64,000 nt of DNA from Amphibalanus amphitrite (Eukaryota; Arthropoda; Thecostraca; Balanomorpha; Balanidae). The number at the start of each line of letters is the position of its first letter. Within the stretch, counting starts at the first letter, position 1. A program made the position numbers and the translations under genes. Shown here one piece after another: positions 1-62,268 of this stretch. Location: NCBI RefSeq assembly GCF_019059575.1, contig NW_024881980.1, positions 310,001 to 374,000 of the forward strand. The letters run 5' to 3'. The notes beneath the pieces were generated by a model. The model was not told the DNA's origin. It was given only the letters and a program-made list of their open reading frames with translations, and did not search any database.

Positions 1-1410
1 ATCACAGTCCTGACAGGGGCACCACAGGACCGCCAGGGGCACCACAGGCCTAGCAGGGACACCACGGGCCTGGTGCCCCTGGGCCCTGACAGGACTGTAA
101 CGCCCCTGACAAGCCTGAAGTGTCCCCGGCAGGCACGTGGTGCCCCTGACAGGCCTGAGGCGCCCCTGCAAGGCCGGTGGTGCCCCTGGCAGGCCTGTGG
201 TGTCCATGGCAGGCCTGTGGTGCCCTTGCTAGGCCTCTGGTGCCCCTGACAGGCTTGTAATGCCCCTGGAAGGACTGTGGTGCCCCTGGGCTCTGACAAG
301 CCTGAGGTGCCCCTGACAGGCCAGTGGTGCCCTTGCTAGGCCTGTGGTGCCCCTGGCAGGCCTCTGGTGCCCCTGACAGGCTTGCGGTGCCCTTGGAAGG
401 ACTGTGGTGTCCCTGGGCCCTGACAAGCCTGAGGTGCCCCTGACAGGCCCGTGGTGCCCTTGTTAGGCCTGTGGTGCCCCTGGCAGGCCTCTGGTGCCCT
501 TGCTAGGTCGCTGGTGCCCATGGCAGACCTCTGGTGCCCTTGCTAGGCCGCTGGTACCCCTGCGCCCGGAGAGGACTGGTGCCCCTGAAAAGTCTGAAGT
601 GCCCCTCGGCAGGCCCGTGGTGCCCCTGACAGGCCCAAGGTGCCCCTGCGAGGCCGGTGGTGCCCCTGGCAGACCTCTGGTGCCCCTGACAGACCTCTGG
701 TGCCCCTGGCAGGTCTGTGGTGCCCCTGGCAGGTCTGTGGCGCCCCTGGCAGACCTGTGTTGACTGGTGCCCCTGCTAGGGCGCTGGTGCCCCTCACAGA
801 CCTGTGGTGCCCCTGGGCCTTGACAAGCCTGAGATGCTTGGCTATGACAGGCTCGTGGTGCCCCTGATAGACCAGTGGTGCCCTTGCTAGGCCTGTAGTG
901 CCCCTGGCAGGCCTCTGGTGCCCCTGCTACCCCTGCGCCCGGAGAGGACTATGGTGCCCCTGAAAAGCCTGAAGTGCCTCTCGACAGGCCCGTGGTGCCC
1001 CTGGGCCCTGACAGGCCCAAGTTACCCCTGCGAGGTCGGTGGTGCTCCTGGCAGGCCTCTGGTGCCCCTGGCAGGTCTGTGGTGCCCCTGGCAGGCCTGT
1101 GTTGACTGGTGCCCCTGCTAGGCCGCTGGTGCCCCTCACAGGCCTGCGGTGCCCCTGGAAGGACTGTGGTGCCCCTGCCCCTAGGGGTGCTCATGGACCC
1201 AACAGGCCCGTTGAGCCCCTGACAGGCCTGTCGTGTATACTTGCTAGACCTGTGGTGCCCCTGCTTCCTGGCAGGCCTGTGGTGCCCCTGGCGGGCCTGT
1301 GGCGCCCCTACAAGGCCGTAGGTGCCCCTGACAGATTTGTGGCGTCCCTGGAAGGACTTTGGTGCCCCTGACAAGCCTGAAGTGTCAAGGACAGACCCTT
1401 TAGACGCCAG
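1..1410. repeat. 20-bp GC-rich minisatellite
   Basis: Tandem array of a roughly 20-bp unit of the form tggtgcccctggcaggcctg, with frequent variants (gacagg, gaaggact, gctagg) and occasional 27-bp units containing gggccctgacaag. A higher-order block repeats: the segment containing cgcccggagaggact begins near 556 and again near 929, and gttgactggtgcccc recurs near 759 and 1101. Open frames occur in several frames on both strands because the unit rarely generates stops. Since 20 is not a multiple of three, the reading frame would change with every unit, so none of these frames is taken as a gene. The array may continue left of the window. Confidence 0.93.
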
Positions 1411-1435
1411 GGTCAAGTTCGTCGGACTGACAACG

Positions 1436-1640
1436 ATTTGCTTACCTGATAACGTGGCTCCATATCAAAGCGTACAAAATCCTAGCATACAATCATTAAA
1501 ACATACAAAATCGTAACATACAACGCGCAAAACCTACAAAACAGGCCGGGTAGGGGACAGTCAAAACATACAAAAGCGCAGCGTACAAAATCGTATCATA
1601 CAAAAGCGCAAGGTACAAAATCGTTTCACACAAAAAGGCA
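1436..1640 (+). repeat. Degenerate tacaaaatcg array, left copy
   Basis: Short irregular repeats of catacaaaatcgta, gcgcaaaacctacaaaac and similar, about 13-16 bp apart. The segment is the reverse complement of 11720-12069, including the interruption acaggccgggtaggggac. Similarity ends near gataacgtggctc on the outer side. It is either a repeat-bearing terminus of a large element or one of two independent insertions. Confidence 0.75.
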
Positions 1641-2099
1641 GGAGATAATTAATGACATTAATTAAAGTACGCATCATGCAAAACCGTTCCACATTAATTT
1701 TCATCATTTCGTCGTCCTTGAGATGTCAATTTTCACATGGATCAAAACCTACAATTTCCACTGCGCTTCGAGCGACATCTTTGTTACAGGTTTGCGCAGT
1801 TACGAAACTTTCCTCTAGAGGCCTCCTCTGTCAACGCACAGGCAGGCTTCGCACAGCCAATGTTTTTTGCTTGTTTATACAGTGAGCGCCGGTCTCGGAG
1901 CGGCGGGGCGTCCCGGTGCCGCCGCCGTTCCCTCCCTCAGGCCGGGCAATGTTTCCCCTCCTCCGTAGACGGCGCGGCCCCGCAGGAAACGGCCAAGGCC
2001 ACGTCCCCGTGGCTCACGTCCCCACTCCCGGCGCGCCGTCTCTGGGAGAGCGAGACGACGCTGCCTTCTCTGGGAGAGCGAGACGACGCTTGGTGCATC
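1641..2099. other. Single-copy stretch with GC-rich 28-bp duplication
   Basis: The first 240 bases are AT-rich without recognisable features. About 1885-2095 is GC-rich and ends in a 28-bp tandem duplication (tctgggagagcgagacgacg begins at 2041 and 2069). Two overlapping open frames cross it, but neither shows a recognisable domain. Confidence 0.5.
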
Positions 2100-2462
2100 G
2101 AGTCACATTCTGAATAGATACGTGAAGAATCATTGACCTTTTCCTCGAAAATGTAAAAACAATGCCAAAAGTTATATTGAATGCGGTGAGCTTTCGGCTA
2201 CAAGCCTTCGTCAAACCAACACAATGACACAATACAAAATTCCGTCATTTTGTATTGTCATTTTGTACAGAATTTTGTATTGTGTCATTTTGTTGGTTTG
2301 ACGAAGGCTTTTAACCGAAAGCTCACCGCATTCAATATAACTTTTGGCATTGTTTTTACATTTTCGAGGAAAAGGTCAATGATTTTTCACGTATCTATTC
2401 TCGCTATGTTCCTCGCTAAAGCACTTCACACCATTAATTCCATCGAATTGAGTCACATTCTG
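2100..2462. mobile_element. Fold-back insertion with 13-bp target duplication
   Basis: A 337-bp insertion (2113-2449) lies between two exact copies of gagtcacattctg (2100-2112 and 2450-2462). It contains a nearly perfect inverted repeat with arms 2112-2242 and 2270-2400 (131 bp each) and a 27-bp spacer, followed by a unique tail (2401-2449). A second copy sits at 61143-61345 with a different flanking duplication. Target duplications of 13-14 bp suit target-primed retrotransposition, and an inverted 5' part followed by a direct 3' part is what twin priming produces, so a LINE- or Penelope-derived fragment is likelier than a DNA MITE. The open frames in it are arm translations, not genes. Confidence 0.85.
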
Positions 2463-2718
2463 CTTATATTGACAAGAGCCACCGGGACAGATTTGGTAAA
2501 TCAAATTGAAAACTGCCAATGAACTTCAAATAACCTAACATGGAAGTTGCTGGAGTATTTTGCCACACACCATTTGCTAGGGGGAGGCGTAAAACATTCC
2601 CAGCCGATAACTCAACTCAAGAACCAATAGGCGCAGCGAAACGGGCGAGGCGGCTAACAAAAGAACGTGACGAGACACTTCTGATGATTTAAGTTCAGTT
2701 CCAAAGTCACAGGTCGAG

Positions 2719-3604
2719 TTAACCCTCGCCCGTATTGGTGTTTTGCCAGCCGCGAACGTACGAGGGGTTGTTGGACCCCCCTTGCCGTTTGGCCTCTGAT
2801 CGAGCTAGAGCTTCGCGGAAAAAAACGAGCATGCTGCCCGTGACGAGAGAAAGCCGATGATACCCAAGTTTAAGGTCCTAGGTCATTGGTTGACCTTCCA
2901 GGTCATGCCAATGACCCAAAAGTCGGGAAAATCAGGACTGTCAGAACCTCGTAAAGTGTGGGTGCTGAGAGGTTTTTTCTGTGTGCGGACTGTTGAATGT
3001 TAGCCGTTTTGATCACAGATGATGTCTTTATGCATTTAGACCAGGTCGAGTCAGGTCAGGTCAGGTCAACCAGTAGGGATCCTGCCTCCTGCCGGGTATT
3101 CGGAGTAGGTGTCAACCGGCTCTGACAGCTTCTTAACATGATACGAAGGCACCAGAACTACTTCGTAAATGTTCAAATGATTACTAAATTCGAAATCAGC
3201 TCCAAAAACTAGCATAGATGAAACATGTAAAACTCGAAAAAGTGAGCCGAGGTCATCAAAAGTCAATGACCCGACCTGACCTTCAAGTGACCTTGACACC
3301 CACCCTAATGCATGGGACCAACATCATATCACATTTTTGAACGCTTGAAACCACGAAAATACTGCAAGGGCGCGGCAAATGCGAGCCGACATACGCCGAA
3401 TCGCGATTCCGGCCAAACATGGTCTCGAAAAGTAGGTCACAGGTCAAAGGTCATTTGGGTCAAGGTCATGAATTTTTCAGGGCAGGTGTAACACTGATTA
3501 ATGCGAGGGTACTGAAAGTTTCCGCTTTTTACGCGAGTTATTCGAGAAAAACCGAGGAGGGGGAGGGGGGTTCGCTCGGCCACCGCCTATACGGCGAGGG
3601 TTAG
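2719..3604 (+). mobile_element. TTAA-bounded GGTCA-rich element (CCCTCGCC family)
   Basis: Begins TTAA-CCCTCGCCCGTAT at 2719 and ends ATACGGCGAGGG-TTAG at 3604, an inverted terminal match of about 12 bp next to TTAA-like tetranucleotides. The interior holds many AGGTCA/TGACCT motifs, including gtcaggtcaggtcaggtc near 3054. It matches 41452-42290 over most of its length and 8655-8878 at its 3' end. There is no coding capacity. Termini and target are piggyBac-like, so it is read as a non-autonomous member; the superfamily is an inference. Confidence 0.75.
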
Positions 3605-4193
3605 GGTTATTCCAAACACCTGAAAATGGGCTTTTAGTAGCATGGACTTAAGAACTTCGTTCTGGACGTCCCTCGTCAAAAACTGTGTTAGGATTGTGCA
3701 TAATCTCTCATCTAAGTGCTACACAAGTGTCAGTAGCATGCAGGGGTCACTTATCCCTCACCGGGCCTATTGGTTTTCTACATACGCCCCGGACAGGGAG
3801 GGAGTGCGACCCCTCTTGCCGTTTCGCCCCTGATAGAGCTAGAGCCTTGCGAAGCGAGCGTGTGCGCCGTTACGAGAGGCAGCGATTGGTACCTCATTTT
3901 AAGGTATCAGGTCAACCGATGACTTCTGAGGTCAGGTCAAGTGGCACAAGGTACGGGTTCGGTTTTTGGTAAATAACTTGGGCAAAAAATGGCCACAGAG
4001 CCGCGATTTTGCACCATCATGTTGGCCTAGCTCAGGCGCGTTGAGTGGTAACTTTTTGTTCGGGCGAGGGCATTCAAGGAGTTGACTTCGGGTCAAAGTC
4101 GGGTTGGAGTCTCTCAGGTCACAAAGCTGGTCGGAGGAGGTCATATTGCATGTAATTACTTATTGGATTTGACAGGTCTTTCTGAGTATGTAC

Positions 4194-5604
4194 GGCCCTC
4201 CAGCAAAAGAATCGTTGGTTAGCCTATGTGCTTTTGGTGCAATAACTTTGAATGACAGAGACACTCCTGTAAAATGACTCAATAGAAATGAGAAGAGGGT
4301 TCGTGCACACACTTCCGCAATGGTTTTCAACAGCCATTAGACGTATTCATCAATGCAGATCGCTTATTGTGATGATGGCAACCAACCACTTAACCCGCGC
4401 CCCACTGGGGGGGGGGGGGGGGGGGGGTGGGGGGCTATTCATAGCCTCCCTCCCGTTTTTCTGCAATAACTTCCAAACCACTTGACGTATCGACGCCAAA
4501 CTTTCAGTACCTACCTTCGGCTGCATCAATTTGAAACCTTGTGTCAAAATTTGAACTTCGTAGCTACCATAGGTCGGCCGGAAATGACGTCAGAGTGACG
4601 TCATGTTCGGCCGATTTCGACGCAAAACATTGAACCACGGCAATCGCTCCCAAGGGCTCAGTTTTTAAGCTAGATCCAATTTCTTTGCATGAGAGGACTT
4701 AGAATAGACAGCGCTATCAAACTGCTATCTCGGATTTTCGAAATTTTGAAAATTTCGAAAATTATATATAATAAAACTCAAAATTTACATTTTTACATTT
4801 TTTCAAAAAGTTTTTGACTTTTCGAAAAACCGGAATATATGTGATAGAACGCGTTATTATGACCAACTCTAGCAAGTTTTAGCTAAATATCTTCAAAAAT
4901 GGCCAAGTTATACGCATTATTACAAAAAAAATACAATTATTAATTTTTCAAATCTTTTTTCAGTACGTATTTGACATCGTACACCAATATAAATAGCACC
5001 ATCGTGTTCTTGAGCTCAAACTGCATCCAATAGACACCTTTTTTGTTGAAAAATTTTAACTTCAAAATTTGACCTTTTTTTACCTGAAAGTGACCTGACC
5101 TAAGCTAAATTCCACTCAAAATGACCTCGAATGACACAGACGACATCAAATTCGAAATCTATGGCCTAAATGGACCATAAAACATGTGTCACGTGACCCG
5201 CGCATGATATAATATTTCCGTGACCTGTGATGACCTGACCCTGACCTGGAAATCACAGTACAAGTTTGGTACCCTCAAGGTATCTAGAGCATCTATTAAC
5301 GAGTGTGGAAACCAAAAATGAGCCTGATCTGCCTTGTAAGACGGCGGCCAGAGCCCAAAATGTGAACAAGCCAAAATGCTAATAATTTTTATTTTGACCT
5401 GACCTGTGACGTCATCGGTGACCTCGAGGTCAATGAAATTAGGTTCCGCTCGACAGTCTTTCCGGGGCTATCAGACGCCGTTTGAATTTTGACGATCGGC
5501 CCAGTAGTTTCGGAGTTAGGAGGGGGGCTATGGAGAGCCCCCCCCCCCAGTAGGGCGTGTTATACGCAGACCCCAGTGGGGCGCGGGTTAATACCTGGAG
5601 GGCC
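4194..5604. mobile_element. MITE with GGCCCTCCAG termini, GTAC duplication
   Basis: Perfect 10-bp inverted termini ggccctccag (4194-4203) and ctggagggcc (5595-5604), flanked by gtac on both sides (4190-4193, 5605-5608). Comparison with 61037-62268 shows this block is absent from the homologous site. Its own sequence is only about 210 bp (4194-4389 and 5592-5604), because the TTAA element at 4390-5591 lies inside it. Confidence 0.65.
4390..5591. mobile_element. TTAA-bounded GGTCA-rich element (CCCGCGC family)
   Basis: The clearest member of the family. TTAA at 4390-4393 and 5588-5591 enclose perfect 17-bp inverted termini, CCCGCGCCCCACTGGGG on the left and its reverse complement on the right. 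The left terminus runs into a long G tract and the right is preceded by a C tract. The interior is AT-rich in the middle (4740-5060) and has TGACCT motifs in its right half. There is no open frame of note. TTAA target and CCC...GGG ends are diagnostic features of piggyBac-type elements; non-autonomous status is inferred from the lack of transposase. Confidence 0.85.
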
Positions 5605-8894: not shown

Positions 8895-10132
8895 TTAACC
8901 CGCAAGCCGCTGGGATCCTGGATTTCAGCGCCCTGCTGGAGAAGGGGTGTTTGACCTCCCCCCCTCTTTACTTCTAACTTGGCTCCTGGGCCACGTAGCG
9001 ACACGCCGTAGACGGTGTTCGAAAGAGCGGCAAAATAATGAGGAAATCAAACAGTCATTTTTAGGTCAGGTCAAAGTTCAGGTCGCCAGAGGTCACCGAA
9101 GGTAAAATTTCGCCACTTTCCAGATCAAACTTCGATAATTTTCGACAAACTGGCGCATAGCTGAGGAATGAAAGAGCTACAGCACCGCGCAAAAGCGCAT
9201 TCGGTGGCGCTTTTAACAGTCTTTCTGAATAATTTCCTCAGATTTGACCTAAGGTCAACAGTTTAGCTTGCAGGGGGCAAAAACTGCCAAAATAGGCGCT
9301 TTTTTGCGGAAGCAGTTTTTCTGCAATAACTTTTCACTTTTCACCTGCACGAGCTTACTTTTAGTAGCAGCGTGTTTCTCTCGTCAAGACGACGCATCTA
9401 ATCAGTTATAAGTTGACTTCTAAAGGTCAACTTCTAAATTGCACATCAGGTCGAGGTTATGACCTGACCGGAAAGGGTCATGTTACATATCAGTCGATCT
9501 GTTTCGTCGATCCAAACACGTCTAAGGCGTTTTCATCGCTCTAGCGTGCCTCTATCAAAAGGTATTAGTGAATACCTAATTGTTACCAAGATACCATTCG
9601 TGACCTGAGCCGACCTCAGGGATATAACGAGAGGTCACGGGTGCCATTTTCCGGTTCAGTATGTCACGTCTATCTTATAATTCGATGCTTTGAAGCGATT
9701 AGAATTAGAATGACTTTCATCCAAAAGACGCGCCTTTCAATTATTTTCCCATTGACTTAAAATGGAGAGGTCACCATATTGACCTGACCTTAGGTAACTG
9801 ATGTCAAAATTCCGAGGTATGCGTTTTGTTATACTGTTTGTTTTATCAATTGCTGAAAGTTTCAAGTGATCGGTGACTAGGTGAAGCTATGGCAGGCATT
9901 CAAACTTTTTTATGAGGTATGTTCACCTGACGTGACCTGGTGACCTGATCTTGGGTGACCTTGGTCTAAAATTTATGCTAACAGAATGTGTAGAAAAGAT
10001 GTATGATAATTGTTGATAAGGTGTGCAAACAACGGCGGCGCTCCGCGCAGCCATTTTTAGATATTCGAGAAAAACCAAACCGGAGGGTGTGTTCAAACAC
10101 TCCCCATCCCCCGCCAGCAGGGCGCGGGTTTT
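8895..10132 (-). mobile_element. TTAA-bounded GGTCA-rich element, inverted copy
   Basis: Begins TTAA-CCCGCAAGCCGCTGG and ends CCAGCAGGGCGCGGG-TTTT. Relative to the copy at 40155-41347 it is reverse-oriented, and the two match along most of their length, including cacgtagcgacacgcc. Its end abuts the next copy head to head. The target tetranucleotide has decayed to TTTT on one side. Confidence 0.75.
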
Positions 10133-11307
10133 CGCCCCAGTGGGGGGGGGGGCATATGTTACCACCCTGTCGCGTTTTTTGCGTGTGAATAAAAAACTGC
10201 GGCGCGTAGCGCCGCGCCGCTTGGGGTAGCTTTTGGTACATCAATGTTGGACAATGTGTGGCATTTTTGACCCCAGGTCATGTCAGGTCAGGTCACCAGG
10301 TCAAGTTAACTGACCAAGCCTTAAAAAGTTTACAATCATGTCCAGCCTGCAGTGTTTGTCAGAAAGGTTTTAAACTTGGTGGATTGCATGCTGTTATAGG
10401 CGCCTACAATTTGTATATCTCGGATTTTTTTATATCCGTGACCTAAGGTCAGGTCAGTGGCGTGACCTTTCCATTACAAGTCAATGGAGAAAAATGAAAA
10501 TGCCTCTAGATCCGTGTGTACGCATCGGAACAGTCCAAATATTTCAGAATCACAATGATTTAGTCCACTCGTGATGACCAAGGTGTCATTTTTGCTGATA
10601 GCCTCTAGACAGGTCATCCGAGGTCACTTGAGGCTACAAACAGTTTTTTGCCAATAATTCGCGATTGGAAAGAGATAGAACGCTGGGGATGGTCTCATTG
10701 TGTTTGTCTTGTTGAGACGCATCGACTGATATGCAACATGACCTTTTCCGGTAAGGTCATGACCTTGACCTGAGGTCAAATTTTCAAGTTGACCTTCAAG
10801 GTCAACTTATAGTTCATTCGACGCGTCTCGGCGAGGGGAACACGATTCTGGCAATAGAAATGTCGTGGCTTTTTGTAGTCGAAAGTTATTGTCGAAAAAC
10901 TCTTTTCGTAAAAACAGCTATTTTTGGAGTTTTTGCCCTCTGGAGGCTAAACCGTTGACCTGAGGTCAATATTGATAATGACCTTTTCAAAAGAAGAGTT
11001 CAAAAGCTATCGTTTGCTGTTCCATGCGTTTTTTTTAGCCACCATAGTTCCTGAGATAGCGGCATGTTTTCTGAAAAATATAATGACAATTGGCAAATTT
11101 TGACCTTTGATGACCTCTGGTGACCCCAATATTGCTCTCAGGTGAAAAATGACTGAAACACTTTCAAACGTACGCATTGAGAGCTATCGACTGCTTTTTA
11201 CCGCGTCTTTCTAGCCCTCTTAGTTTTTGAGTTAGAGGTGGGTGGTAACATATTCCCCCCCACACTAGGGCGAAGTTGGCTGAGACCGCCACTGGGGCGC
11301 GGGTTAG
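10129..11307 (+). mobile_element. TTAA-bounded GGTCA-rich element, direct copy
   Basis: Starts TTTT-CGCCCCAGTGGGG and ends CACTGGGGCGCGGG-TTAG. Includes the GC hairpin gcggcgcgtagcgccgc near 10199 and dense AGGTCA motifs near 10277. Same orientation as 40155-41347. The left terminus lacks the outermost CCCG, consistent with erosion at the shared junction with the preceding copy. Confidence 0.7.
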
Positions 11308-16783: not shown

Positions 16784-19700
16784 CTGGAGGCAGAGTGAGA
16801 TCAGAGGGAGGTTAGGTGAGGGATTAGGGGTGCCGTTTTTCGACCCACCAGCCCGCAATGAGTGGGTAGATAAAACCCGCATGGGTTTAAGCGGGTTGCA
16901 TCACCAGGAAATACCCTGGTGCGGGTTTTATGCGGGTATAAAAAATCAGAAACTTCTTAGCTAAAACAAAACAAGATTTCCCCTTGAAAATGGAAAATAA
17001 ATTTGCTGCAGCATGGCCTAGAATAGGTACTTCACATATGCAGTAAGATGTCCTGGAAAAATATGACTAGAAAGTGGAAAAGCTTTTTGGCTGTTATGCG
17101 GGTTGTTGCGGGCTGCTACCAATGAAGTTCCCCATGCGGGTAGTTGTGGGTATTTAGAGAAGGGTTGCGGGGCGGGGCAGGTTACCTGGATCCCCAAAAA
17201 GGAAACCTCTATAGGGGATGTCATGCAGTTGATGCTAGAATAATGGATCTTTGCTTTTCGACGTGCTCTGTCAGCCTATAAAGTTTCGTCAGTTTCGTAA
17301 ATATAACTTATCTTTTTTTATTCTGGTTCTCGTCCAGTGCACCTCTTTAGCCGCCTGTTTCACATCTGAGCGAAGTAATTAATTTGGTGTTGGCAGGTCT
17401 GGCTGCCATTCAAATCACCTGTTGACATCTGACTGTCACCGACTGTCAGCGGGTCGAACCATATGACACGACGTCCTCGTATACTTCCAAACGCCATGGA
17501 GTCAATTAGGATGCAAATGGATCCAGCGTGCAGGTAAAAGACTCGAAGGCACTCTGTCTATACAAGGCTCGGAAATTGCGAGGCTTTTGTAAAATCTTGC
17601 GATGCTCACTATGCTGAGCTAAGGCTCTTTTCAACAATATTTGCATATGCTGTCGCCAGATAGCCGACTTATTACAGCTTCATTTTGCGTTGAATAGCCG
17701 TTCAAGCTGGGCCTTTGCGCGTTTATTTGCAAGATAAGTTTTTGACCAGCTTGCTAATGAAATCCAGTGACGCTGCTAAATGCGTACGCATACCAGTGTG
17801 AATTTGAACATCTTCGTGTATATGCCGTTCTACATCTGTTGCGTCGGTCTGCTAATGTGCTTACGAGAGGCAGTGAATGCCCTTGATGAGACACGTCCGG
17901 ATTAATCCATCCGTGGCGGTGACCTCTATCAGCACATCTTTTTACATGTAACCCGCCACAAAACAGCGTAACTAGCATGTTGCGCGACACGTGCTGCCGA
18001 AAAGTACATAGAGGCTCATTATGTAAGCGTGGCACCGGTGCCCCTGAATAGAAAACATAACACGTGAGAGCTCGACGGGAGCCAGTTGAGCCAGCAAAAA
18101 GGGGCGGCCAATCTGACCACTTGTGCTCGTTGTTAGTTGGCCGTGGCCTCGGTGCATGGCTGCGTGAGCCATCGAGTCCGGGGCCGGCCTGCTGGCAGGC
18201 GGTAACTGTGGCCGTCTATTCAAATGGCTGTCTGACAGACAAACGCCTGTCCAGTGGCTGTCTGACACATAAACGGTCTGGCGCAGACAAAAAAAAGTCT
18301 GATATTGCTCTCACACAGACAAAACGTTTGATGGCTGAGAAAAAAGTCCCTACCTGTTTACAAACAAATAGGTATAGTGCAAACCAACGGAGTACGCCAA
18401 TGGAACAGCAAGTTGAACATTTTCCTCCCTCCCTTTTCATTATTGTATGTGTATTACTGAGGAGTCATTTTAGTTAGTTCCATATTTGGAAAATACTTAA
18501 GCTAATTGAATATCTAAATCCAAGCCAATCAAAGGCTTCGTCAAATTATCTACTGCAACTAAATGACATTAATGTAACCTAGATGCGGCTCTAAAGGGTG
18601 GTGGTATATTGAAGACTCATTCTTAATCGTTTGGTGGTTCTGTCGTCCTACTCATTTTCAAAGAACTGAAAATCATATCGCGATTTAATCTAGATTGATG
18701 AGCCAACTAAATTTGGTCGACCATTGCATTACGGAGTTCCATTAGCGTTGAGGTGAATCCGAGGACCATTATTTGTCGAAATTCCCTACGACTCCGGTCA
18801 CATTGCCATGCTGATGCGGGCTTCTTATAGCGGCTATACAGGTAGTACTTAAAGATCATTTGATTGATACTGGCTGTGCAGTGCCACTTGCTACTACGCA
18901 AGAGTGCGCCAAAGGTCACACTGGTAATAGCACAAATATAAATATATCCCTCGCCCATGTAGGGGGGGGGGGGTTTGGTGCACCCCCCCCCCCCCCTGAG
19001 GTTTTTCTTAGCTACACGCCGAACCGTTTCAGATAGCTTGCTCAAATTTTCAGTACCCTTTGGGGCATCCTTTGCGCAACTTTTGGAATTTTTTGTTGTC
19101 AAGGTCATGTCAGGTCACGGAGTTATGACGTCATAAATGGAACAACCTCCGGCCAGATTTACGCTAAATTGGAGATTACTTCACATTGGTATAAATGCCG
19201 ACTGACCTGACACACTGATGGATTGTTTTAGAATCGCAACTGGCTGATTTGACATTGGCACAATGTCCGTTGACATTTTGAAGGTTACTAAAGGTCAAGG
19301 TAAGGTCAGTGACCTCGGTTGACCTGTAATGACTTCTTGCACTTTTATGCCTTTTCGGGGTATTTTCATGCCCTGAATTCGAATTTGCTATCCATTTCAG
19401 GCATCGTCGGTTGTTTCTTGTAGTTCATTTTGGGGCAGGGTCAGGTCAGTGACGTCACACGTCTGACGTGACCCAATGCACAAATGACCTTGCAGACTTC
19501 CGATGCTCCCAACGCATCATTTTTAGAGTTATGACATCGGAATACACACCAAACGATAGAGAATTGATCAAGGATCACGATAGTGAAGGTTTCAAGTCGA
19601 TATCTCTTACCATTTTTCCGCAATCGGCGCGGAAATCTGAAAAAGTTCGATTTTTTCCGAAAATTTGACCTTTGACCGGTCATAAGTAGGTCAAATATTG

Positions 19701-21902
19701 CCCTAGGACCAAAAAATATACCACCAATCGCGAGATCTCGTTGAGAGCAATCCGTTGGTCTTTTCCGCTAAGCTCTACGACGCTCCGTTTTCAAACGCCA
19801 GGGGGGGTCGCACCAACCCCCCCCTGCATGGGCGAAGGTGGCAAAACACCGTTTACGGGCGAGGGATAAGGTTATTACACACTACACTATTTTACATACT
19901 ACACTACTACTACAGGCACAAATATACAGGCACAAATATAAATATAAGGTTATTACACACTACACTATTTTACATACTACACTACTACTACTACATGCTT
20001 TTTGTAATCATTTGGTGTGCCTCAGGGACGAAGACTGAACTGTTCATAAAGATGACCTTTATCACTCCGAATCATTCTTAGTTCGACGGCCGACGCCGTT
20101 GAACTCACCACAAGGAGAGCCTGGCCATGACCACCCATGGACCCAAACCACCACCAGACCGTCACTGACCTATGCTCGGCGTGACGACGTTCAGCACACA
20201 GAGCAGCAGCGCCACCGGCATCGGCATGTAAGGGATCGACTTGCGGAAGCAGCCGTGCTTCTCGTGAATTTTGACGATCTCCATCCGTTCAGTCTGACCG
20301 TCGTCATTTTCGTACAGTACCTGCGGTGAAAACGAGACGTTAGACAGATAGGAGAACGGCTGAGTGCGATGCGTAACGGAGCGACTGCGATTTGGTTTGG
20401 TGTGGTATTTTTTTCATTTTTATAACGCAAGAAAAACATTGCTTTCTTGTCACAATCGTATTGTGGCCCTGAACAATATCTATTATGACTTACCTTATCA
20501 AAAAGCGTTGCTGTTGTATGTTCATATCACTGATCAATAGTTGAGCCAATTTTATAAGGCTCCGAGCCTGAGGCGGCCGTGTACATTATTACGCATAGTG
20601 GCATTTTCTACCACCATAGCATGACGACCAGACATGTGCATGGATCCGAGAAAATGCATCTGGGATCTACTCCCACGGATCCTGATCTCGGATCCGTCGG
20701 GATCATAGATCCAGCTCTATAATTTATCGAGAGATCCATAGGGATCATAGATCCGAGTCTCATTTTTTGCTTGAGATCCAGTGAGATCATAGATCCTCAC
20801 TTATTTTGTGTTAACACATATATCCCAAAAAAGCACTTGTTTCAACTCACAAACGTTCTGTTTTAGTGATTTTATGTGATTGCACGTCATAATCCATAGT
20901 TTTGTGTCACTTATTGGCATAGAAACCCTTTAAACATGGTTTCAAATGTGGTGCATGGTCGGATCCACTGAGATCATAGATACATGTTCTTAATTTATCG
21001 TCAGATCATATGAAATCATAGATCCAAGATGTATTTTTCACGCCGGATCCGGTGGGATCATAGATCCCGACCTGTACTTTGCTTCGAGATCCACTGAGAT
21101 CATAGATCCATCACTCGGATCCATGCACATGTCTGATCACGACCACCATGAACCGTTACCAATAACTCATCAGAAGGGGTTGAAAAGACCGCTGTGACCG
21201 ACTCGTGACGGCCCACTGACCAGTGTTGGTCAGTGGAAGCCACATCACCGGCAATTGGATTATGCATAGGTCACTGACGGACGCACGGGGACCCATGACT
21301 TGGCCGGCGGCAGGCGTCCAGACGTTGGGACTGTGTGGGCGTCCTACATGGTATATTTATGTGCAGAACTCACGATAAGGCGCCGTGGGTAGCTACATGG
21401 AATACAAAAACGGTGCGCAATATTCAGTGAGGAATAACGGTAATTGTATTTGGCTGCTGAAATAAGCGAGCACTCTTCAATTATTGACGGCATTGTAATT
21501 TTTCCCAGTTGTAGCCACACATATGAAACCACCTCCACCTGATGGCTATACGTATAGGTGCCGACTGTCGAGGAATGTACATCAATCTCTTTAAGCGCGC
21601 CGATGATGGGTTATTCTCCCTACCAGTATCACTACGCTGTCTGACAGGCCGGTTGGCAGGCCGCCGGGCTTGGTCTCGTTATGTGTTGTTGATGTAACTG
21701 AACCGACATAGGCATGTACACTGGGCGACGAAATACACCAATAGGTACTGTGACCGTATAAGGCATCAGCGTCCTACCGCATTTTTCACGGTCACCATGA
21801 GGAGCAATAAGCGGTACTCTTACTCGGTTCCGTTATTTATCCAATCCTTTGGTTTTATTCGTTTTTATCTCATGAGACCTTCAGTCTAGCCGACTCACTG
21901 GT

Positions 21903-40154: not shown

Positions 40155-41347
40155 TTAACCCGCGCCCTGCTGGGGGGGGGTGTTTGAACACCCCCCCTTG
40201 TGGTTTTTCGCGAATATCTCAAAAACGGCGGCGCGGAGCGCCGCCGTTTTTGGTACACCTTATCATACATCAATTCTACACATGTTGTGAAAATTTCAGA
40301 CCAAGGTCATTCAAGGTCAGGTCACCAGGTCACTTGAAGTGACCTCACCTCATAAAAAGTTTCAATGTCTGTCATAGCTACACCAAGTTACCGATCGCTT
40401 TGAAACTTTCAGCGATTGCTAAGAGCAATAGCATGTACAAAATGTATATCTCAGAATTTTGATATCGATGACCTAAGGTCAGGTCAATTTTGCGATCTCC
40501 CCATTACAAGTCAATGGGAGAAAATTGAAATGCGCCTCTTTTGGACGAAAGACATTATAAACACTCCCAAACACTGAATTACAAGTGGTTTAGACACACT
40601 GAACATGAAAATGGTGTCCGTGACCCCTGTTTATGCCCTGAGGCCATCTTAGGTCACGAATGGTATCTAACAGTTTTTCGCAAATAACTTTTGATAGAGG
40701 CATGCTAGAGCGATGAAAACGCCTTAGATGTGTTCAGCTCGACGATACGGATCGACTGATATGCAACATGACCCTTTCCGGTCAGGTCATGACCTTGACC
40801 TGAGGTCAAATTTTCAACTTGACCTTTCAAGGTCAAGTTATAGTTCATTCGATGCGTCTTGACGAGAGGAACACGATGCCGGTAAAAGTAAGCTCGTACA
40901 AGGCTTGGGTCAAAAGTTATTGCAGAAAAACTGTTTCCGAAAAAATCGGCTATTTTTGCAGTTTTTGCCCCCTGCAGGCAAAACCGTTGACGTTAGGTCA
41001 AATCTGAGAAAATTACTCAGAAAGGGCGTTAATAGGGCTATCGAATGCGCTTTTCCGCGGCGCTGTAGCTCTATTGGTTCCCGAGTTATGCGTTGGCTTC
41101 TTGGAAATTGTCGACATTCGACCTGGAAATCGGCGAAATTTTGCCTTCAATGACCTCTGGTGACCTGACCTTTGACCTGAACAAAAAATTGACCGAAGTG
41201 ATTTCCTCATTATTTTTGACGCTCTTTCGAACGCCGCTTTCCGCGTATCGCTACGTGGCCCAGGAGCCGAGTTAGAAGGGGGGGGGTGTTCAAACACCCC
41301 CCCAGCAGGGCGTGGAAATCCAGGACCCCCAGCCGGGCGCGGGTTAA
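40155..41347 (+). mobile_element. TTAA-bounded GGTCA-rich element, reference copy
   Basis: Intact TTAA at 40155-40158 and 41344-41347. Termini CCCGCGCCCTGCTGGGGG and the reverse complement of CCCGCGCCCGGCTGGGGG match at 17 of 18. Subterminal palindrome ggtgtttgaacacc at both ends. The interior contains a perfect GC hairpin and many AGGTCA/TGACCT motifs. 1193 bp, no ORF. Used here to orient other copies. Confidence 0.85.
40221..40251. repeat. Perfect 14-bp hairpin inside the element
   Basis: aaaaacggcggcgc, loop gga, then the exact complement. Equivalent but diverged GC palindromes of the ggcgcNNNgcgcc type occur at the matching position near 10199, 53950 and 55268, so the feature is conserved across copies. 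Confidence 0.85.
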
Positions 41348-41451: not shown

Positions 41452-42290
41452 TTAACCCTCGCCGGCACAGTCCATTTTGCGTCCTTCGACGGCACAGGGG
41501 GGGGGGTACGACCCCCCCCTCGCGTTTGGCCCCTGATCGAGCTAGAGCTTCGCGAAAAAAAACGAGCGTGTTGCCTGTCACGAGAGGAAGCCGATGATAC
41601 CCAATTTTAAGATCCTAGGTCATCGGGTGACCTTCCAGGTCAGGTCAATGACCCGAAAATCGGGAAAATCGGGACCTGTTAGAAAGTCGTAAAGTGTGGC
41701 TGCTATGGGGTTTTCCGGGGTGCTGATCACGAACATCGTGTGAGTTTTGATCAGAGATGATGTCTTTAAGCATTTAGACCAGGTCGGGTCAGGTCAGGTC
41801 AGGTCAACTGGTAGGGGTCGTGACGGGTGTTCGTAATACGCGTCAACCGCCTCTGACAGCTTCGTAACATGTTACGAAGGCACCAAAACTACTTCGTAAA
41901 TGTTCAAATGGTTCCTAAATTCGAATTCAGCTAAAAAAACTAGCCTAAAAACATGTAAAACTCGAAAAAGTGAACCGAGGTCAACAAAGGTCAATGACCT
42001 GACCTGACCTTCAGGTGACCTTGACACCCATCCTAATGTATGGGAGCAACATCAAATCACATGTTTGAACGTTTGAAACCACGAAAAGCTTGCAAACGCG
42101 CGGCTAATGCGAGCCGACATACGCCGAATCGCGATTCCGGCCAAACATGGTCTCGGAAAACAGGTCACAGGTCAAAGGTCATTTAGGTCAGTGTCATGAA
42201 ATTTTCAGGGTAGGTGTAAATTTGATCAATGCGAGGGTACTGAAAGTTTCGTCGCGCTCGGCCGCTTTTTACGTGAGTTATTCGCGAATT
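41452..42290 (+). mobile_element. CCCTCGCC-family element, 3' truncated
   Basis: Starts TTAA-CCCTCGCCGGC and matches 2719-3604 from the tgatcgagctagagcttcgc segment to gcgagttattcg, where it stops. Just left of its TTAA is gccggcgagg, the reverse of its own terminus, so another family end abuts it at a shared TTAA. Confidence 0.7.
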
Positions 42291-42301
42291 GATAAACAAA
42301 T

Positions 42302-44699: not shown

Positions 44700-45070
44700 T
44701 ACCACACTTCTACTACTTCTACCCATACAACTACTCCTACCACTACCCCTACCACTACCCCTACCCCTACTCCTACCACTACCCCTACCACTACCCCTAC
44801 CACTACCACTACCACTACCACTGCCCCTACTACTACCCCTATCACTACCCCTACTACTACCCCTACCCCTATCCCTATCCCTACAACTACCACTACCACT
44901 ACCACTACCCCTACTACTACCCCTGCCACTGCTACAACCCCTACCACTGCCCCTACCACTACCCTACTACTACCCCTACCACTACCCCTACCACTACCCC
45001 TACTACTACCACTACCCCTACCGCTACTCCTACCAATACTACTACCACTACACTACCATCACTACCACTG
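44700..45070. repeat. CTACC/CTACCA microsatellite
   Basis: Long array of ctaccactacccctac-type units, about 370 bp, ending at catcactaccactggg. It is preceded by several GGTCA motifs (44590-44690). All large frames here are artefacts of the repeat. Confidence 0.95.
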
Positions 45071-46996: not shown

Positions 46997-48215
46997 TTAA
47001 CGTTCCCCCAGGTGGGTGGGGGCGTTTTTGGCCACACCCGACAATTTTGTGCTTGCATAAATAAAACGACACGAAACTTAGTATAGCTTATGTATAATGC
47101 ATCGATTCGCATCATTTGTGAAAAAAAAATGTAACCCCATGTCACCTAAGGTCAGGTCAGGTCACCATGACGTAGAAGTTTGAAACTCGAGCTATTGCAT
47201 GAGAGAATCAGTACCAACTACCAACATCTTGAGTATCTTTAATTTTGATATCGGTGACCGAGGGTCAGGTCAACTTTGCGACGTCTCCAGTTTCAGTCAG
47301 TATGAGGAACTCGAAATGCTCTGCTTTTGAAACAAAAACACTCAAACGTCGGGATCTATCTTATGCTCCTGAGGTCATCTCAGGTCATGTAACGTCCCCA
47401 ACAGTTTATTTTTGTACATTGATTTTAGATGGAACGTGGCCAGAGCGCTAAAAACATCATAATCATAGGCGGCGGAACGGGGAGGGCACCGGGGCACCGT
47501 GCCCCCTTTGATTTTGACATTTTAAGATTAGCCCTATGGGCGTTGCATGGGAAGAATGGGACCAAAAGTCGGCAATGTCTGGGACCAAAAGTCTAATTGA
47601 AGGTGTTCCGCCGCTACTGATGTTAATCACAATCTCAATGTAACGAATCGACTGACATGCAACATGGCATTTTCTGCGACTTTGACCTGAGGTCAAATTT
47701 ATTAAGTTGACCTTGTTAGGTCAACAAGACGAGAGAAACGCAGTGCCGGTAAAATCAACGTCACAATAAAAGGTTGGTATCAAAAGTTTTAAAAGATAAG
47801 ACGATTTCCGAAGCACGCCGATTGTTCAGTTTTTGCCATTTGGAGGCTTAACCCTAGTTGACCTTAGCTCAAATCTGAGAACCTGAAAGATTTTCGAAAG
47901 AGCTATCGAATTCGCTTTTCCGCGGCGCTGTAGCTTCTTTGGTTCCCGAGTTATGAACCAATTTGTGAAGTTGTCAAAATCTAAAGCCAAAATTCGTCAT
48001 CATTTTACTTTTGGTGACCTCCAGTGACCTCAGCAATGACCTGATCGAAAATGACCTGTATGATTCTGAAGGAAAATAGCGAGCTATATATTGATTTTAC
48101 TGCGTCTTTCCAACTTTGTTACATTCCAAGATAACCTGGTGTGGCCGAATACGCCTCCCCTCCCCCCCCCCCCCGCCCCACCAAGTTGGCTGAGGGCCAC
48201 CCGGGCGCGGGTTAA
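46997..48215 (+). mobile_element. TTAA-bounded GGTCA-rich element with nested MITE
   Basis: Right end is a clear gggcgcggg-TTAA (48212-48215). The left end is taken at TTAA 46997-47000 followed by cgttcccccaggtgggtgg, which is diverged. The interior follows the 40155-41347 copy (aaggtcaggtcaggtcacc near 47150, tgaggtcaaattt near 47690). Interrupted at 47464-47617. Confidence 0.65.
47464..47617. mobile_element. MITE with GGCGGCGGAAC termini, copy 1
   Basis: Begins cataggcggcggaac and ends gttccgccgctac. The near-identical copy is at 59696-59853. Comparison with 40700-40740 shows it interrupts the host element. Flanking sequences are similar but diverged (atcataat and atgttaat). Confidence 0.75.
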
Positions 48216-53745: not shown

Positions 53746-54041
53746 TAGCAATGACCTAATGACATCCTCCGACTTTCAAAGGGCTCCGTCATCTATATAC
53801 TGTAGCTCTGACACGGTGGCAAAGTTGCAAAAAAGTGACTTGAGTTGAGGTTGGGTCATTCAAAGTGACCTGGTGTCCTGACCTTAACATTAAGGAGCTT
53901 CAATCTTGCACATTATGTGTAAAATTGATGAGAGAATAGTCATACCAAATTTCGCGGCGCTACGCGCCGCAGTTTTCCCGCTACTCGCGAAAAACTTCAG
54001 GGGGGCGAATAACCGCCGCCCCCCGTCGGTGCGCGGGCTAA
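53746..54041 (-). mobile_element. Fragment of CCCGCGC-family element
   Basis: Minus-strand copy of the family 5' end: terminus gcgcggg-ctaa at 54031-54041, GC palindrome ggcgctacgcgcc near 53955, and TGACCT motifs. Truncated where the AGCGA repeat begins. Confidence 0.65.
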
Positions 54042-54158: not shown

Positions 54159-55360
54159 TTAACCCGCGCGGGGCTGGGGTCTCCGGCCGAACGCGCGGGG
54201 CTGGGAGGGGGGGGGGGTGTGTGTGTGTAAATTTTACCCCCCCCCCTGTTATCTCCCGAACTAATGGTCCGATTTGGAAAATTCAAACGCCAATCGAAAG
54301 ATCTCATCACGAACAACTAAAAACATGTACTTAATTTAAATTTTGAGGTCAAGGTCAAGGTCAGGTCAAGGGTACAAATTGTAAGTTTCTACAGTATCGG
54401 CCTTGCACCGTAGTTGCCGAAGAATGGAGTCATGGACTGAGACTGATTGCCCAAAACGTGTTCTTAGGCTACCAAGACAATATTCATTGCATACAATATC
54501 ATTCAAAGGTCAAGGTCAAGGTCAGGTCAGGTCAGGTCAGGTCACCAAAAACAAAATATAGAAAAGGGCATGTGCGACACATGTTTTATGGGTCATTTTT
54601 ATCATAGAATTCAATAGGCACACTCAATAAGTGATGTGGACCACCTCTGGATGAATTTCAGGTCGAGGTCAGGTCAAGGTCAGGTCAAGTGAGGTCAAAT
54701 TTTGAAGTTGGTTGTTAAGGCCTAAAAAGGTGTCTATCTGATGCAGTTTTTCACGGCAAATCGAATGGTGCTATTTTTGTTTCCGTACGAGGTCTAGAAC
54801 TTCCAAAAAAATCATTTTTCAAATTTTTTGTGTGTCGTAACGTCATAAAATGTTTAATAACTCCCACATTTTTGAACCGATTCTTCTAAAAATTGGTATG
54901 TAGGTGCACATAGACCACTTCTCTGACATATGTTTCGGTTTTTACGATACACTCAAAATTTTGGATTTTATAGTTATTTTCCCAAAAAAGTCAGTTTTTT
55001 GGAAAAATTTGGGCAAAAATCAAAAATTTTCAAAAAACCGAGATAGCCATTTGATAGACAAAGTAGAATTACGTATAACCTTTTTTGTTACGTCTTGATT
55101 CCTTTAAAAATGAAGATGTTAGCGGCGTTTGAAATTTTGCCGTTTTTGAGGCGAAAATGGCGAACATGACGTCACTAAAACGTTAATTTCTCAAAAAATT
55201 TCCGACCGATTTCGCTCAAATTTTCAGGAAACGTGTCAAATTGATGTAAGAAAAGGTGCTGAAAGTTTGGCGGCGCTACGCGCCGTCGTTTTTGAGATAT
55301 TGCAAAAATTCGCGAGGGGGGGGGGGGTAAAATTTACCCCCCCAGCCCCGCGCGGGTTAA
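54159..55360. mobile_element. TTAA-bounded GGTCA-rich element, intact termini
   Basis: TTAA at 54159-54162 and 55357-55360, perfect 17-bp inverted termini CCCGCGCGGGGCTGGGG. The left terminus has a partial internal duplication (cgcgcggggctggg). Densest AGGTCA clusters in the window: 54345-54370, 54505-54545 and 54660-54700. Ends with hairpin ggcggcgctacgcgccg near 55268. 1202 bp, equal in length to the 4390-5591 copy. Confidence 0.85.
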
Positions 55361-59057: not shown

Positions 59058-59684
59058 TTAACCGTCGCCCGTCTGTTGGCGTTTCAACAGCCGCTAACGT
59101 AAGGGGGAGGAGTCGATCGGACCCCCGCGGCCTCTCGGACTCTGATATGGAGCTGTGCATAAAAAAGACGAGCGTGCTACCCGTGACCATAGGAAGCCGC
59201 TGCTGCCCATTTTTAAGGTCCTTGGTCATTCCGTCTCATTCAAGAGGGCAATGATAAGTGTCGAGAAAATCGGGACCCGCTATAACTTCTTGAAGTGAGA
59301 TTTTATGGCTCAAGATGATCTCCAAAAAAAGCTCATAAGCCAACGGTCATTATGGGTCCAGAGGCCAGTTTTACCAACAGAAAAATAGCCGCCTGCCGGA
59401 ATTTTTGCCTAAAGATCGTTTCACATATGGAGCGTAAACGGTAAAGCCCTATCCGCTTACGAGCCCATCGCGTTTACGCTCCGTATGTGAAGCGGTCTTG
59501 AGGCAAAAATTCCGGCAGGCGGTTATTTTTCTGTTGGTAAAACAGGTCTCAGGTCATGATATTTTCCGGGTTGGTGAAAAAAAAAAATGATGGGTTCGAG
59601 GGTACAATTTGGTCGTGATCCAATGCCTTTTACGTGAGCTTTTAACGAAAAACCACCCGTCGCCCCTATACGTACAAGGGTTAA
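59058..59684 (+). mobile_element. CCCTCGCC-family element, shortened and rearranged
   Basis: TTAA-ccgtcgcccgtctg at the left and a tacaaggg-TTAA end at the right. Matches 2719-3604 at aaaaaagacgagcgtgctac (59162) and in the final 100 bp. Much of the normal interior is missing and a 73-bp-arm inverted repeat lies in its place. Confidence 0.55.
59368..59543. mobile_element. Fold-back sequence with 73-bp arms
   Basis: Arms 59368-59440 and 59471-59543 are inverted copies with few mismatches (gttttaccaacagaaaaata; gccgcctgccggaatttttg), spacer 30 bp. Absent from the homologous positions of the other family copies. Confidence 0.8.
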
Positions 59685-59685
59685 A

Positions 59686-59863
59686 TGGGATATAGCATAG
59701 GCGGCGGAACGGGGAGGGCACCGGGGCACCGTGCACCCTTTGATTTTTGCATTTTAACATTAGCCCAGCCCTATGGGCGTTGCATGGAAAGAATGGGACC
59801 AAAAGTCGGCAGTGCTCCCCCCTCCCCCTTAATTGAAGGTGTTCCGCCGCTACTGGGATATAG
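59686..59863. mobile_element. MITE with GGCGGCGGAAC termini, copy 2, 10-bp duplication
   Basis: Element 59696-59853 flanked by exact tgggatatag on both sides. Same termini and interior as 47464-47617. It landed two bases beyond the TTAA of the preceding element. Confidence 0.88.
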
Positions 59864-61036: not shown

Positions 61037-62268
61037 TTAATCGCCACCCAAGGAGGGGAGGGGGCGGGTGCCATCCATGTTTTTTTTTCGCGATAGCTCG
61101 GAATACGCCGGCAATAGAGAACTGAAAGTCAGTATACATAACAGATACGTGAAGAATCATTGACCTTTTCCTCGAAAATGTAAAAACAATGCCAAAAGTT
61201 CTATTGAATGCGGTGAGCTTTCGGCTACAAGCCTTCGTCAAACCAACAAAATGACACAATACAAAATTTTCGAGGAAAAGGTCAATGATTCTTCACGTAT
61301 CTATTCTCGCTATGTTCCTCGCTAAAGCACTTCACACCATTTATTTCAGTATACACAACCTTTGATTCAAGCCAGATCTTGTGACATCAACTGCATTTCA
61401 AGGTCAGGTCAGATCACTGACCCATGACTTCATAAATGAAACTCTGCATGGTCCTCAGATGTCGCAAATTCGCAACGCCTTCAGTGCCAGAGGAGCTTGC
61501 ACAGGAGATGAAACTTACAGGATATAGTATCCTCCAGAGGTCTCACAACTTGTAGGTATATCTCGGATTATCCTAAATGTCACATGAGGTCAGGTCGGTC
61601 ACGTAACCTCACCATTATAAGTCAACCGGGAAAAATGAAACTGCTATTCTGGCGCCGGGAACGATCTCAAACTATTTCAATCACACGGAATCGTGATTTC
61701 ATGCACTCCTTGCAAGTTTTGATGCTTTTATTTTGCATTATTTACCTTGCGTGACGTCATTTAGGGTCACAAGAGTTTTTCTTCAATAACTCCTGGTCAA
61801 ACTGAGCTATCGAGTCGGGAAAACCATCAATGGACTTGGAAAGATCTGCCGGATCGAATGATATGCGACATGACCTCCTTCGACCAGCTTCATGACCTAG
61901 GGGGCTCTGACCTAACCGTGATCCGAGATCAACACCTCAAGTTCACCTCACCCAAACAAAAAGTATACCATTCGACGCGGCTGAGCAAGGCGAACACGAT
62001 GCTGTCAAAAGCGCGGCTCTGCGGCCATTTTTGCGGAGTTATTTGCTAAAAACCGAGCCCGTACCTTAGGCCACTTGATGACCTGACCTCAGAGGTCACC
62101 GGTTGATCTGAAACCTTAAAATTGGGTACCAATCGCTGCGTCTCGTATCGGCGCACACGCTCGTTTTTTTGCGACGCCTTAGCTACATCAGGGGAGAAAC
62201 GGCGACGGGGGTCGTACCCCCCTCGGCCGGCGCGTATGTAGAAAACCAATAGGTCTGGCGAGGTTTAA
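61037..62268 (-). mobile_element. GGTCA-rich element carrying the fold-back insertion
   Basis: TTAA 61037-61040 and 62265-62268. The minus-strand start ttaaacctcgcc then attggttttctacatacg matches the plus-strand copy beginning 3751. Contains the pre-insertion sites for the elements at 4194-5604 and 5802-7973. The fold-back insertion at 61143-61345 adds about 200 bp. Confidence 0.72.
61129..61359. mobile_element. Fold-back insertion, shortened copy, 14-bp duplication
   Basis: Element 61143-61345 between tcagtatacataac and tcagtatacacaac (one mismatch). Left arm matches 2116-2240. The right arm is present only from ttttcgaggaaaaggtcaat onward, so the inner part is deleted relative to the copy at 2113-2449. 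Confidence 0.85.

Follow-up and report, generated by a model that had tools for sequence, protein, structure and literature searches.

The stretch analysed here (the window) comprises 64,000 nucleotides of the Amphibalanus amphitrite genome (contig NW_024881980.1, positions 310,001 to 374,000) and contains six TTAA-bounded elements of about 1.2 kb, designated X elements A to F, together with X fragments and members of a sister family, Y. The features are as follows.

2719..3560, minus strand: Y right end (TTAACCCTCGC) with interior; left boundary provisional
3796..3940, plus strand: Y fragment
4390..5591, plus strand: X element A, subfamily d, exact ends on both sides, 14 GGTCA/TGACC; 95% to L019
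6809..7061, plus strand: X fragment, right end with exact GCGCGGGTTAA
8633..8829, plus strand: Y fragment
8895..10132, minus strand: X element B, subfamily a, old; left-end TTAA now TTTT; 79% to L004 over 8895-10130
10129..11307, plus strand: X element C, subfamily k, ends decayed; adjoins B via four common bases, today TTTT
18945..19868, plus strand: old Y element with a G-run, palindrome and C-run near each end; too short for a transposase gene
40155..41347, plus strand: X element D, subfamily a, young (99% to L016), exact ends on both sides
41452..42300, minus strand: Y right end with interior, 85% to 2719-3560; left boundary provisional
46997..48215, plus strand: X element E, a subfamily of its own, left end decayed
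53750..54041, minus strand: X fragment, left end with tip TTAGCCCGCGC; subfamily e (1,009-bp class), 88%
54159..55360, minus strand: X element F, subfamily b, exact ends on both sides; left end at 55360
59058..59297, plus strand: Y fragment, aligning from the first base of the 2719 Y end
59696..59855, plus strand: X fragment, 86%, kin of element E
61556..61644, plus strand: X fragment, subfamily k, 78%
62079..62222, minus strand: Y fragment

The initial annotation assigned the same TTAA-bounded termini to all six copies. Exact TTAACCCGCGC...GCGCGGGTTAA termini are present in A, D and F, whereas the other three copies have real but decayed ends: B carries TTAACCCGCAAG at one end and GCGCGGGTTTT at the other, C starts with TTTTCGCCCC and finishes with GCGCGGGTTAG, and E starts with TTAACGTTCCC and is exact at its other end. 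Allowing one mismatch, the end pattern occurs 12 times in the window against 1.0 expected, a count reached by 0 of 100 shuffles; two of the 12 matches are sister-family tips (TTAACCCTCGC). The near-perfect inverted termini reported for three copies were confirmed (21 of 21 bp including TTAA in A and F, 20 of 21 in D), as was the length near 1.2 kb, the six copies spanning 1,179-1,238 bp. The described saturation with GGTCA is likewise evident, with 14, 18, 26, 25, 17 and 17 GGTCA/TGACC in A to F, far above simulated means of 2.0-2.6 and a simulated maximum of 9 (500 Markov sequences per element). The description of the six as one family holds for their architecture but not for their sequences, some of which are only ~45% alike and fall into different subfamilies. 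Searches against Rfam and for tRNAs gave 0 matches each, and the window ORFs gave 10 Pfam matches, none above the cut-off. The window also contains a minisatellite of 20-bp units (CCCTGACAGGCCTGTGGTGC) with higher-order repeats of 67, 87 and 127 bp (1-1400), an inverted pair of a 129-bp sequence, its members separated by 21 bp (2113-2400), which recurs ~59 kb off (61140-61348, 98%), and an array of 58 TACCAC hexamer units (44726-45069).

In the whole assembly (807.55 Mb, 2,644 contigs), exact TTAACCCGCGC occurs 46,791 times (23,341 forward and 23,450 reverse), compared with 142 (75 and 67) for the same pattern read backwards; the Y tips (TTAACCCTCGC) occur 44,041 times against 592 for their control. 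Within the first 2 Mb of contig 1, 54 pairs of ends lie 1,005-1,209 bp apart where 1.4 were expected, 48 of them 1,141-1,209 bp and six 1,005-1,021 bp apart; this pairing used, among the matches listed, 100 starts and 92 of 100 ends (to ~2.0 Mb). We estimate the number of X elements at ~23,000 if all exact ends are paired and at ~43,000 if 54% of partners are exact, corresponding to an estimated 28-52 Mb or 3.5-6.4% of the assembly. Both haplotypes seem to be included in the assembly, so that per-haploid X numbers would be about half of these; matches to PF00105 (nuclear receptor) are often paired, with equal scores on different contigs. Unpaired ends on contig 1 might bound larger X elements; in the two such cases examined, L017 and L024, the parts covered hold inserts of other repeats. 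The insert at L017 2330-2660, within an X element of subfamily d, is SINE-like and tRNA-derived. Miniature inverted-repeat transposable elements (MITEs) are usually well under 1 kb. The X elements show the high copy number and uniform length of MITEs at a size of 1,005-1,209 bp, larger MITEs have been accepted in print (PMC3849761), and the label fits the X elements by origin and behaviour despite their large size of 1.2 kb.

Subfamilies and ends were compared in 46 copies, leaving out those in which a clear partner end was missing (L001, L002, L009, L011 and L015) and those in which the pairing was spurious, composite or interrupted (L006, L007, L008, L017, L024 and the outer element of L050). 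Identity is ~94-99% inside young subfamilies, 56-65% for many subfamilies and 78-89% for closer pairs, and the two main groups, I and II, are only ~45% alike. Group I carries the motif on both strands, whereas TGACC is nearly confined to one strand in group II. Length is ~1.19 kb in most subfamilies and 1,009 bp in subfamily e, with L026 (971 bp) and L018 (1,417 bp) as odd single copies; L026 (1501-2471) is chimeric, with a group II-like left end and a group I (k) interior. The centre of group I elements shows weak self-complementarity, at 61-64% in two elements and, measured differently, 55-64% in six, and a weak large palindrome surrounds the central AGGTCA cluster at ~518-784 of group I X elements and at 3835-3985 of the autonomous L071. 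The predicted fold of L004 has -459 kcal/mol, a single value without shuffle control.

The left end of an X element reads, from the tip inward, TTAACCC and GCGC, a 10-bp box (v), and a G-run, palindrome (p) and C-run; the right end opens likewise with tip and v but repeats v 27 bp (26-28) further inward before p is reached. The subterminal palindromes are the same or nearly the same at both ends but asymmetric in position, the right one lying ~27 bp further in; the script missed the palindrome at one or both ends in 7 of the 46 copies. The Y right ends that were read follow the same plan with TCGC in place of GCGC. Both X ends have TTAACCC tips, the fourth base after TTAA being G in X and T in Y, and X thus differs at this base from the usual piggyBac-type tip motif CC[C/T]T (PMC2872659). 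In published piggyBac, the 13-bp terminal repeat and the 19-bp subterminal repeat are set 3 bp apart at one end but 31 bp apart at the opposite one (PMC2532691); the subterminal repeat is nearer the tip on one side in both systems, and the 27-bp offset at the X right end is close to the 28-bp spacer difference of piggyBac. X differs in having a second, inner tip box at the right end and a palindrome built of a G-run and C-run. The piggyBac palindrome is bound by two Cys-rich domains (PMC11707139).

Box v is identical or nearly so at all three places inside one element and differs between subfamilies. Over 11 v types there are 24 within-element mismatches, compared with a shuffled mean of 109.7 and a lowest value of 69 in 10,000 shuffles, the inner right box having been placed at the best of three offsets, which gives a slight bias toward agreement. 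In the pairs L004/L091, L013/L088 and L073/L083, v differs at 3-4 of 10 bases at three places despite 78-88% full-length identity, whereas L004 and L077 differ by just 1-2 bases in v. The boxes at both ends thus change together between subfamilies, one of two unusual features of these elements, the other being the AGGTCA/TGACCT clusters of the interior. A further tip type, TTAACCCGGCAGTTGCTG, was seen at L058 1-41, and a decayed version with G-run, palindrome and C-run at L042 637-704.

X and Y elements insert at TTAA. The initial annotation had proposed TTAA as the target, and two insertions, L004 and L018, have paralogous empty sites with a single TTAA. For the joined flanks of L004, all 40 scored places (of 283 candidates) cross the junction at 96-99% identity, and the two places read (L093 and L094) have a single TTAA each; the joined flanks of L018 align with L029 and L005, intact group II copies, in register and with one TTAA. 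Such empty paralogues are taken as pre-insertion sites, not excisions. The paralogues of L016, L010 and L030 are continuous but have a diverged tetramer or a gapped region, and the joined flanks of L027 matched their own halves and one 56-base stretch in C5. Homology ends exactly at TTAA in two sister copies of each autonomous type described below, which speaks against element edges beyond the proposed termini. Elements joined by one common TTAA were found at C1:1077495, C1:1667088, L013 2679 and L063 3828. The arrangement at L063 3512-4501, a Y right end and an X element with a common TTAA, is matched unbroken at 90-95% in C422, C206, C269, C1177 and C1124, as if the abutting pair itself had been copied or X inserted there repeatedly.

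The piggyBac transposase domain PF13843 is present at 116 places in the genome, of which 42 were examined. Of the 30 loci looked at first, 18 carry matched tips of other types (CCCATTA, CCCTTTA or CCCAGATC) and none has X tips of its own, which suggested that the X elements are orphans; this possibility was overturned by L063 and L071. L071 has an open transposase frame of 666 aa, and its last ~690 bp are an X right half (67-72% to group I subfamilies) finishing in an X right end. Its sisters in C33 (447032-451133) and C431 (240914-245018) match L071 339-4439 at 100% and end at the terminal TTAA; L071 is unlike both to the left of base 339, so that one of its AGGTCA clusters, at ~285-325, lies outside the shared element. 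Thirty-seven other places (40 of 4,963 candidates were scored) match L071 from 3760 to ~4439 at 99-100%, so that one young set of X copies is nearly identical to the autonomous copy in its right 680 bp, and 13 of the 37 have an inverted match to the palindrome ~470 bp further left, which implies copies of ~1.2 kb. L063, which carries the Y right tip, is matched over 1-3831 at 99% by C527 and C44, both ending at the terminal TTAA. Twelve Y copies without the transposase region were found (40 of 4,125 candidates scored), eight with the deletion junction 679/3313 and others with 685/3318, 832/2959, 775/3464 and 409/3071; for these copies, as for the L071 and L063 sisters, the judgement is based on match coordinates. 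The old Y element of the window (18945..19868) is 90% identical to L063 in the 5' repeat and 85% in the 3' part. A piggyBac transposase with the same termini, as sought by the initial annotation, is therefore present as far as the right terminus is concerned: the link between autonomous and X/Y elements rests on right termini, and what links group II copies (A and F in the window) to L071 is their end anatomy and their ladder rather than a match in sequence.

The transposase matches PF13843 at 1e-59. The L071 protein aligns at 1.3e-56 with PDB 6x67, which we take to be T. ni piggyBac, through the C-terminal Cys-rich tail and with the three Asp motifs TIDE, MDRYF and GGVD aligned, their aligned Asp being presumably the catalytic residues; its match to piggyBat is 4.8e-21. 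In a tree of 16 of the 17 non-redundant transposases (L035, below 400 aa, was dropped), L071, L058 and L061 split from the 13 others at 100/100. Kolobok is another TTAA superfamily; the transposase linked to the X and Y elements is piggyBac. A tblastn comparison of transposase frames of at least 300 aa with 14 X representatives gave no match at 0.01. With T. ni piggyBac the barnacle elements have in common the TTAA target, CCC tips, a DDE transposase and a C-terminal Cys-rich domain (PMC2532691; PDB 6x67). The reading as piggyBac MITEs, originally offered as an inference, is supported by the TTAA empty sites, the edges at TTAA and a transposase with a common right terminus; X and Y are shown to be non-autonomous transposons of the piggyBac superfamily with autonomous relatives of the L071 and L063 types in the same genome, and membership of this superfamily implies cut-and-paste movement. 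The autonomous copies, the sister TTAACCCTCGC family, the asymmetric ends and the regular spacing of GGTCA clusters go beyond what was noted initially. At eleven other loci (L044-L054) there is a piggyBac frame of 604 aa with near-equal score, nine of them having both TTAACCCATTAGTGCCC tips and 2,681 bp; these elements are apparently recent, and one copy is nested at TTAA inside an X element (L050).

The density of GGTCA/TGACC is 15-20 per kb in X-matched stretches and 2.6-3.3 in the rest of the DNA examined, Y elements being counted in the latter. The motif reads AGGTCA/TGACCT, a T following TGACC in 115 of 135 cases in group I, 59 of 69 in group II and 20 of 20 in group III, and most copies hold 14-28 GGTCA/TGACC sites at set distances. 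Among six group I representatives, GGTCA is the best kept of 153 pentamers, being retained in 416 of 548 ordered comparisons. In group II, represented by three elements, it ranks second of 10 behind CCCCC, with 64 of 98, the other pentamers, overlapping words aside, having values of 0.08-0.29. It is thus kept in 65-76% of aligned cases against ~0.2-0.3 for most other pentamers in interiors diverged to ~45-64%. Between L071 and five X subfamilies, the motif is kept at 11, 12, 12, 11 and 7 of 17 sites, compared with 0.13-0.25 for other pentamers. In single-copy comparisons it is kept at 14/24 (other pentamers 0.41), 24/25 (0.54), 13/16 (0.50), 18/21 (0.72), 13/15 (0.80) and 12/17 (0.56); as within-subfamily comparisons show an excess where just neutral decay is expected, not all of the excess reflects selection, and the alignments may be anchored by the motif.

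The clusters recur with a period of ~165-170 bp; across 14 representatives the signal at 170 bp has a z of 8.4, reached in 0 of 400 simulations. Counted from the right end, the rungs of the resulting ladder stand near -185, -355, -530 and -700 in X elements and in the 3' region of L071, and at the same places, some of them shifted, in Y; L063 has a clear rung at -185 only, and most left-hand clusters are absent from group II. In six autonomous elements from other clades the motifs number 3-8 per element and are scattered, with no ladder by eye. The sequence AGGTCAGGTCA occurs 258,952 times in the genome against 1,178 for its control. Of the 100 such places listed first, 67 are found no more than 1,250 bp inward of an exact X or Y end among those listed, where 12 would be expected; every one of the 22 gaps between clusters that is shorter than 400 bp measures 142-179 bp. 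The commonest spacing of same-strand half-sites is 5 bp, at which the hexamers overlap, and spacings of 7-11 bp are also present; compared with the DR1-DR5 or inverted arrangements of nuclear receptor response elements, half-site spacing is receptor-like only in some cases. In L061 and L063 the 5' clusters sit in 187-bp tandem repeats, suggesting that part of the spacing may be a repeat relic, and since the subfamilies are of common ancestry the ladder does not represent many independent origins.

By analogy with the solved piggyBac system, the transposase core would read the tip and v, and its Cys-rich domains would read the palindrome. Each subfamily may depend on its own transposase variant, which would explain why v and p change together. 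The AGGTCA/TGACCT clusters of these elements, arranged as a ~165-bp ladder, are proposed to be cis sites for a conserved host DNA-binding protein that serve mobility, a reading that we consider probable. Whereas v and p are replaced from one subfamily to another, AGGTCA persists, in X as in Y and even where a copy has no gene, which points to a host factor that does not vary with the transposase. AGGTCA is the half-site of nuclear receptors, and ~165 bp is close to a short nucleosome repeat. Because of this half-site, and because the genome has such genes (77 matches to the domain PF00105), a nuclear receptor is the leading candidate reader of the clusters. By binding between nucleosomes, the candidate protein would keep the element open and assist the transposase in pairing the ends. 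A more specific version, tentative and on the unlikely side, is that of a phased chromatin module, in which a host nuclear receptor sitting in successive linkers (~165 bp) would open the element and the spread of the elements would have seeded most of the 258,952 AGGTCAGGTCA direct repeats in the genome. The element length classes near 1,190 and 1,009 bp are about one rung apart.

Three other explanations of the ladder have to be weighed against binding by a host protein. The transposase itself may bind the clusters, which would then be internal sites extending the subterminal array and making end pairing more efficient. Distances from the right end describe the ladder best, copies without transposase retain it and, among the autonomous elements examined, it accompanies the L071/L058/L061 transposase clade; other systems are known to have repeated subterminal sites for their transposase (PMC11707139). 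However, v and p, the expected transposase contacts, turn over between subfamilies whereas AGGTCA does not, and the sites extend 700-1,000 bp inward, far from the ends; we regard this explanation as fairly unlikely. It is also unlikely, in our judgement, that the ladder is a functionless relic of an ancestral AGGTCA tandem repeat of ~165-187 bp, left by slow decay and conversion. Such an origin would be consistent with the 187-bp tandem units with AGGTCA upstream of the gene in L061 and L063, with the likeness of clusters inside one element (for example L013 825-848 and 986-1009) and with some motif excess in single-copy comparisons too. It accords poorly with the retention of GGTCA in 65-76% of aligned cases, against ~0.2-0.3 for most other pentamers, amid interiors diverged to ~45-64%; moreover, self-comparison of five X elements gave mainly palindromes and motif-cluster matches, and a tandem-repeat scan found just short AGGTC-type arrays in one window copy (F).

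The clusters could, finally, be a promoter or enhancer of the autonomous transposase gene only, inherited without gain by gene-less copies through deletion. The clusters of L061 and L063 are indeed upstream of the frame, L061 having motifs there that we take to be a TATA-like box and heat-shock-like repeats, and the 870 bp preceding the L071 frame contain 7 motifs. Gene-less X subfamilies differing by 36-42% nevertheless keep the sites, and L071 has 19 motifs 3' of the gene at the same right-end distances; the ladder in copies without a transposase gene makes a role in transposase expression alone unlikely, and we consider this explanation quite improbable. The Pokey element of Daphnia bears on both sides of the question: its authors favour a transcription role for its ~200-bp repeats, arguing from the Pokey MITEs, which are without repeats (PMC3849761), whereas the MITEs described here have them.

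A short regulatory-looking motif is thus kept in place amid largely diverged sequence in gene-less copies, which makes it testable whether a host factor and chromatin phasing serve a transposon in cis and whether elements of this kind are a bulk source of nuclear-receptor-type sites. The data also connect a non-autonomous population of very large size with autonomous relatives whose transposase frames are open, all within one genome, and give a readable rule for changing end recognition, in which the v and p boxes shift in concert.

The nearest known system is Pokey/mPok of Daphnia, which likewise comprises piggyBac lineages that differ in their terminal repeats and are each accompanied by large MITEs of their own (~750 bp), and which also shows insertion at TTAA flanking another copy and repeats in the 5' non-coding region (PMC3849761). 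The Pokey repeats come from the rDNA spacer and are absent from its MITEs, while the MITEs here keep AGGTCA clusters, and mPok numbers 60 in assembled scaffolds and 90-110 in the genome (PMC3849761) compared with 46,791 exact ends here. The part of the T. ni piggyBac paper covered here mentions no AGGTCA ladder (PMC2532691), and no piggyBac element with such a ladder is named in the titles and abstract beginnings of the literature searched. CMITE of Acropora corals is also piggyBac-type, with TTAA and differing terminal repeats over common interior features, but is ~100 bp long with ~1,600 copies estimated in one species, has one conserved 75-bp interior instead of a ladder of short sites, and has a parent proposed for one family (PMC2872659). 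ATon elements of Aedes were rejected as relatives because their target is AT, not TTAA (PMC3422177). A transposable element spreading AGGTCA-type sites in number is also exemplified by the DR2 retinoic acid response elements of Alu; Alu is a retrotransposon, and CpG mutation was the main source of its DR2 motif (PMC1785376), whereas most copies of the elements described here carry 14-28 GGTCA/TGACC sites at set distances.
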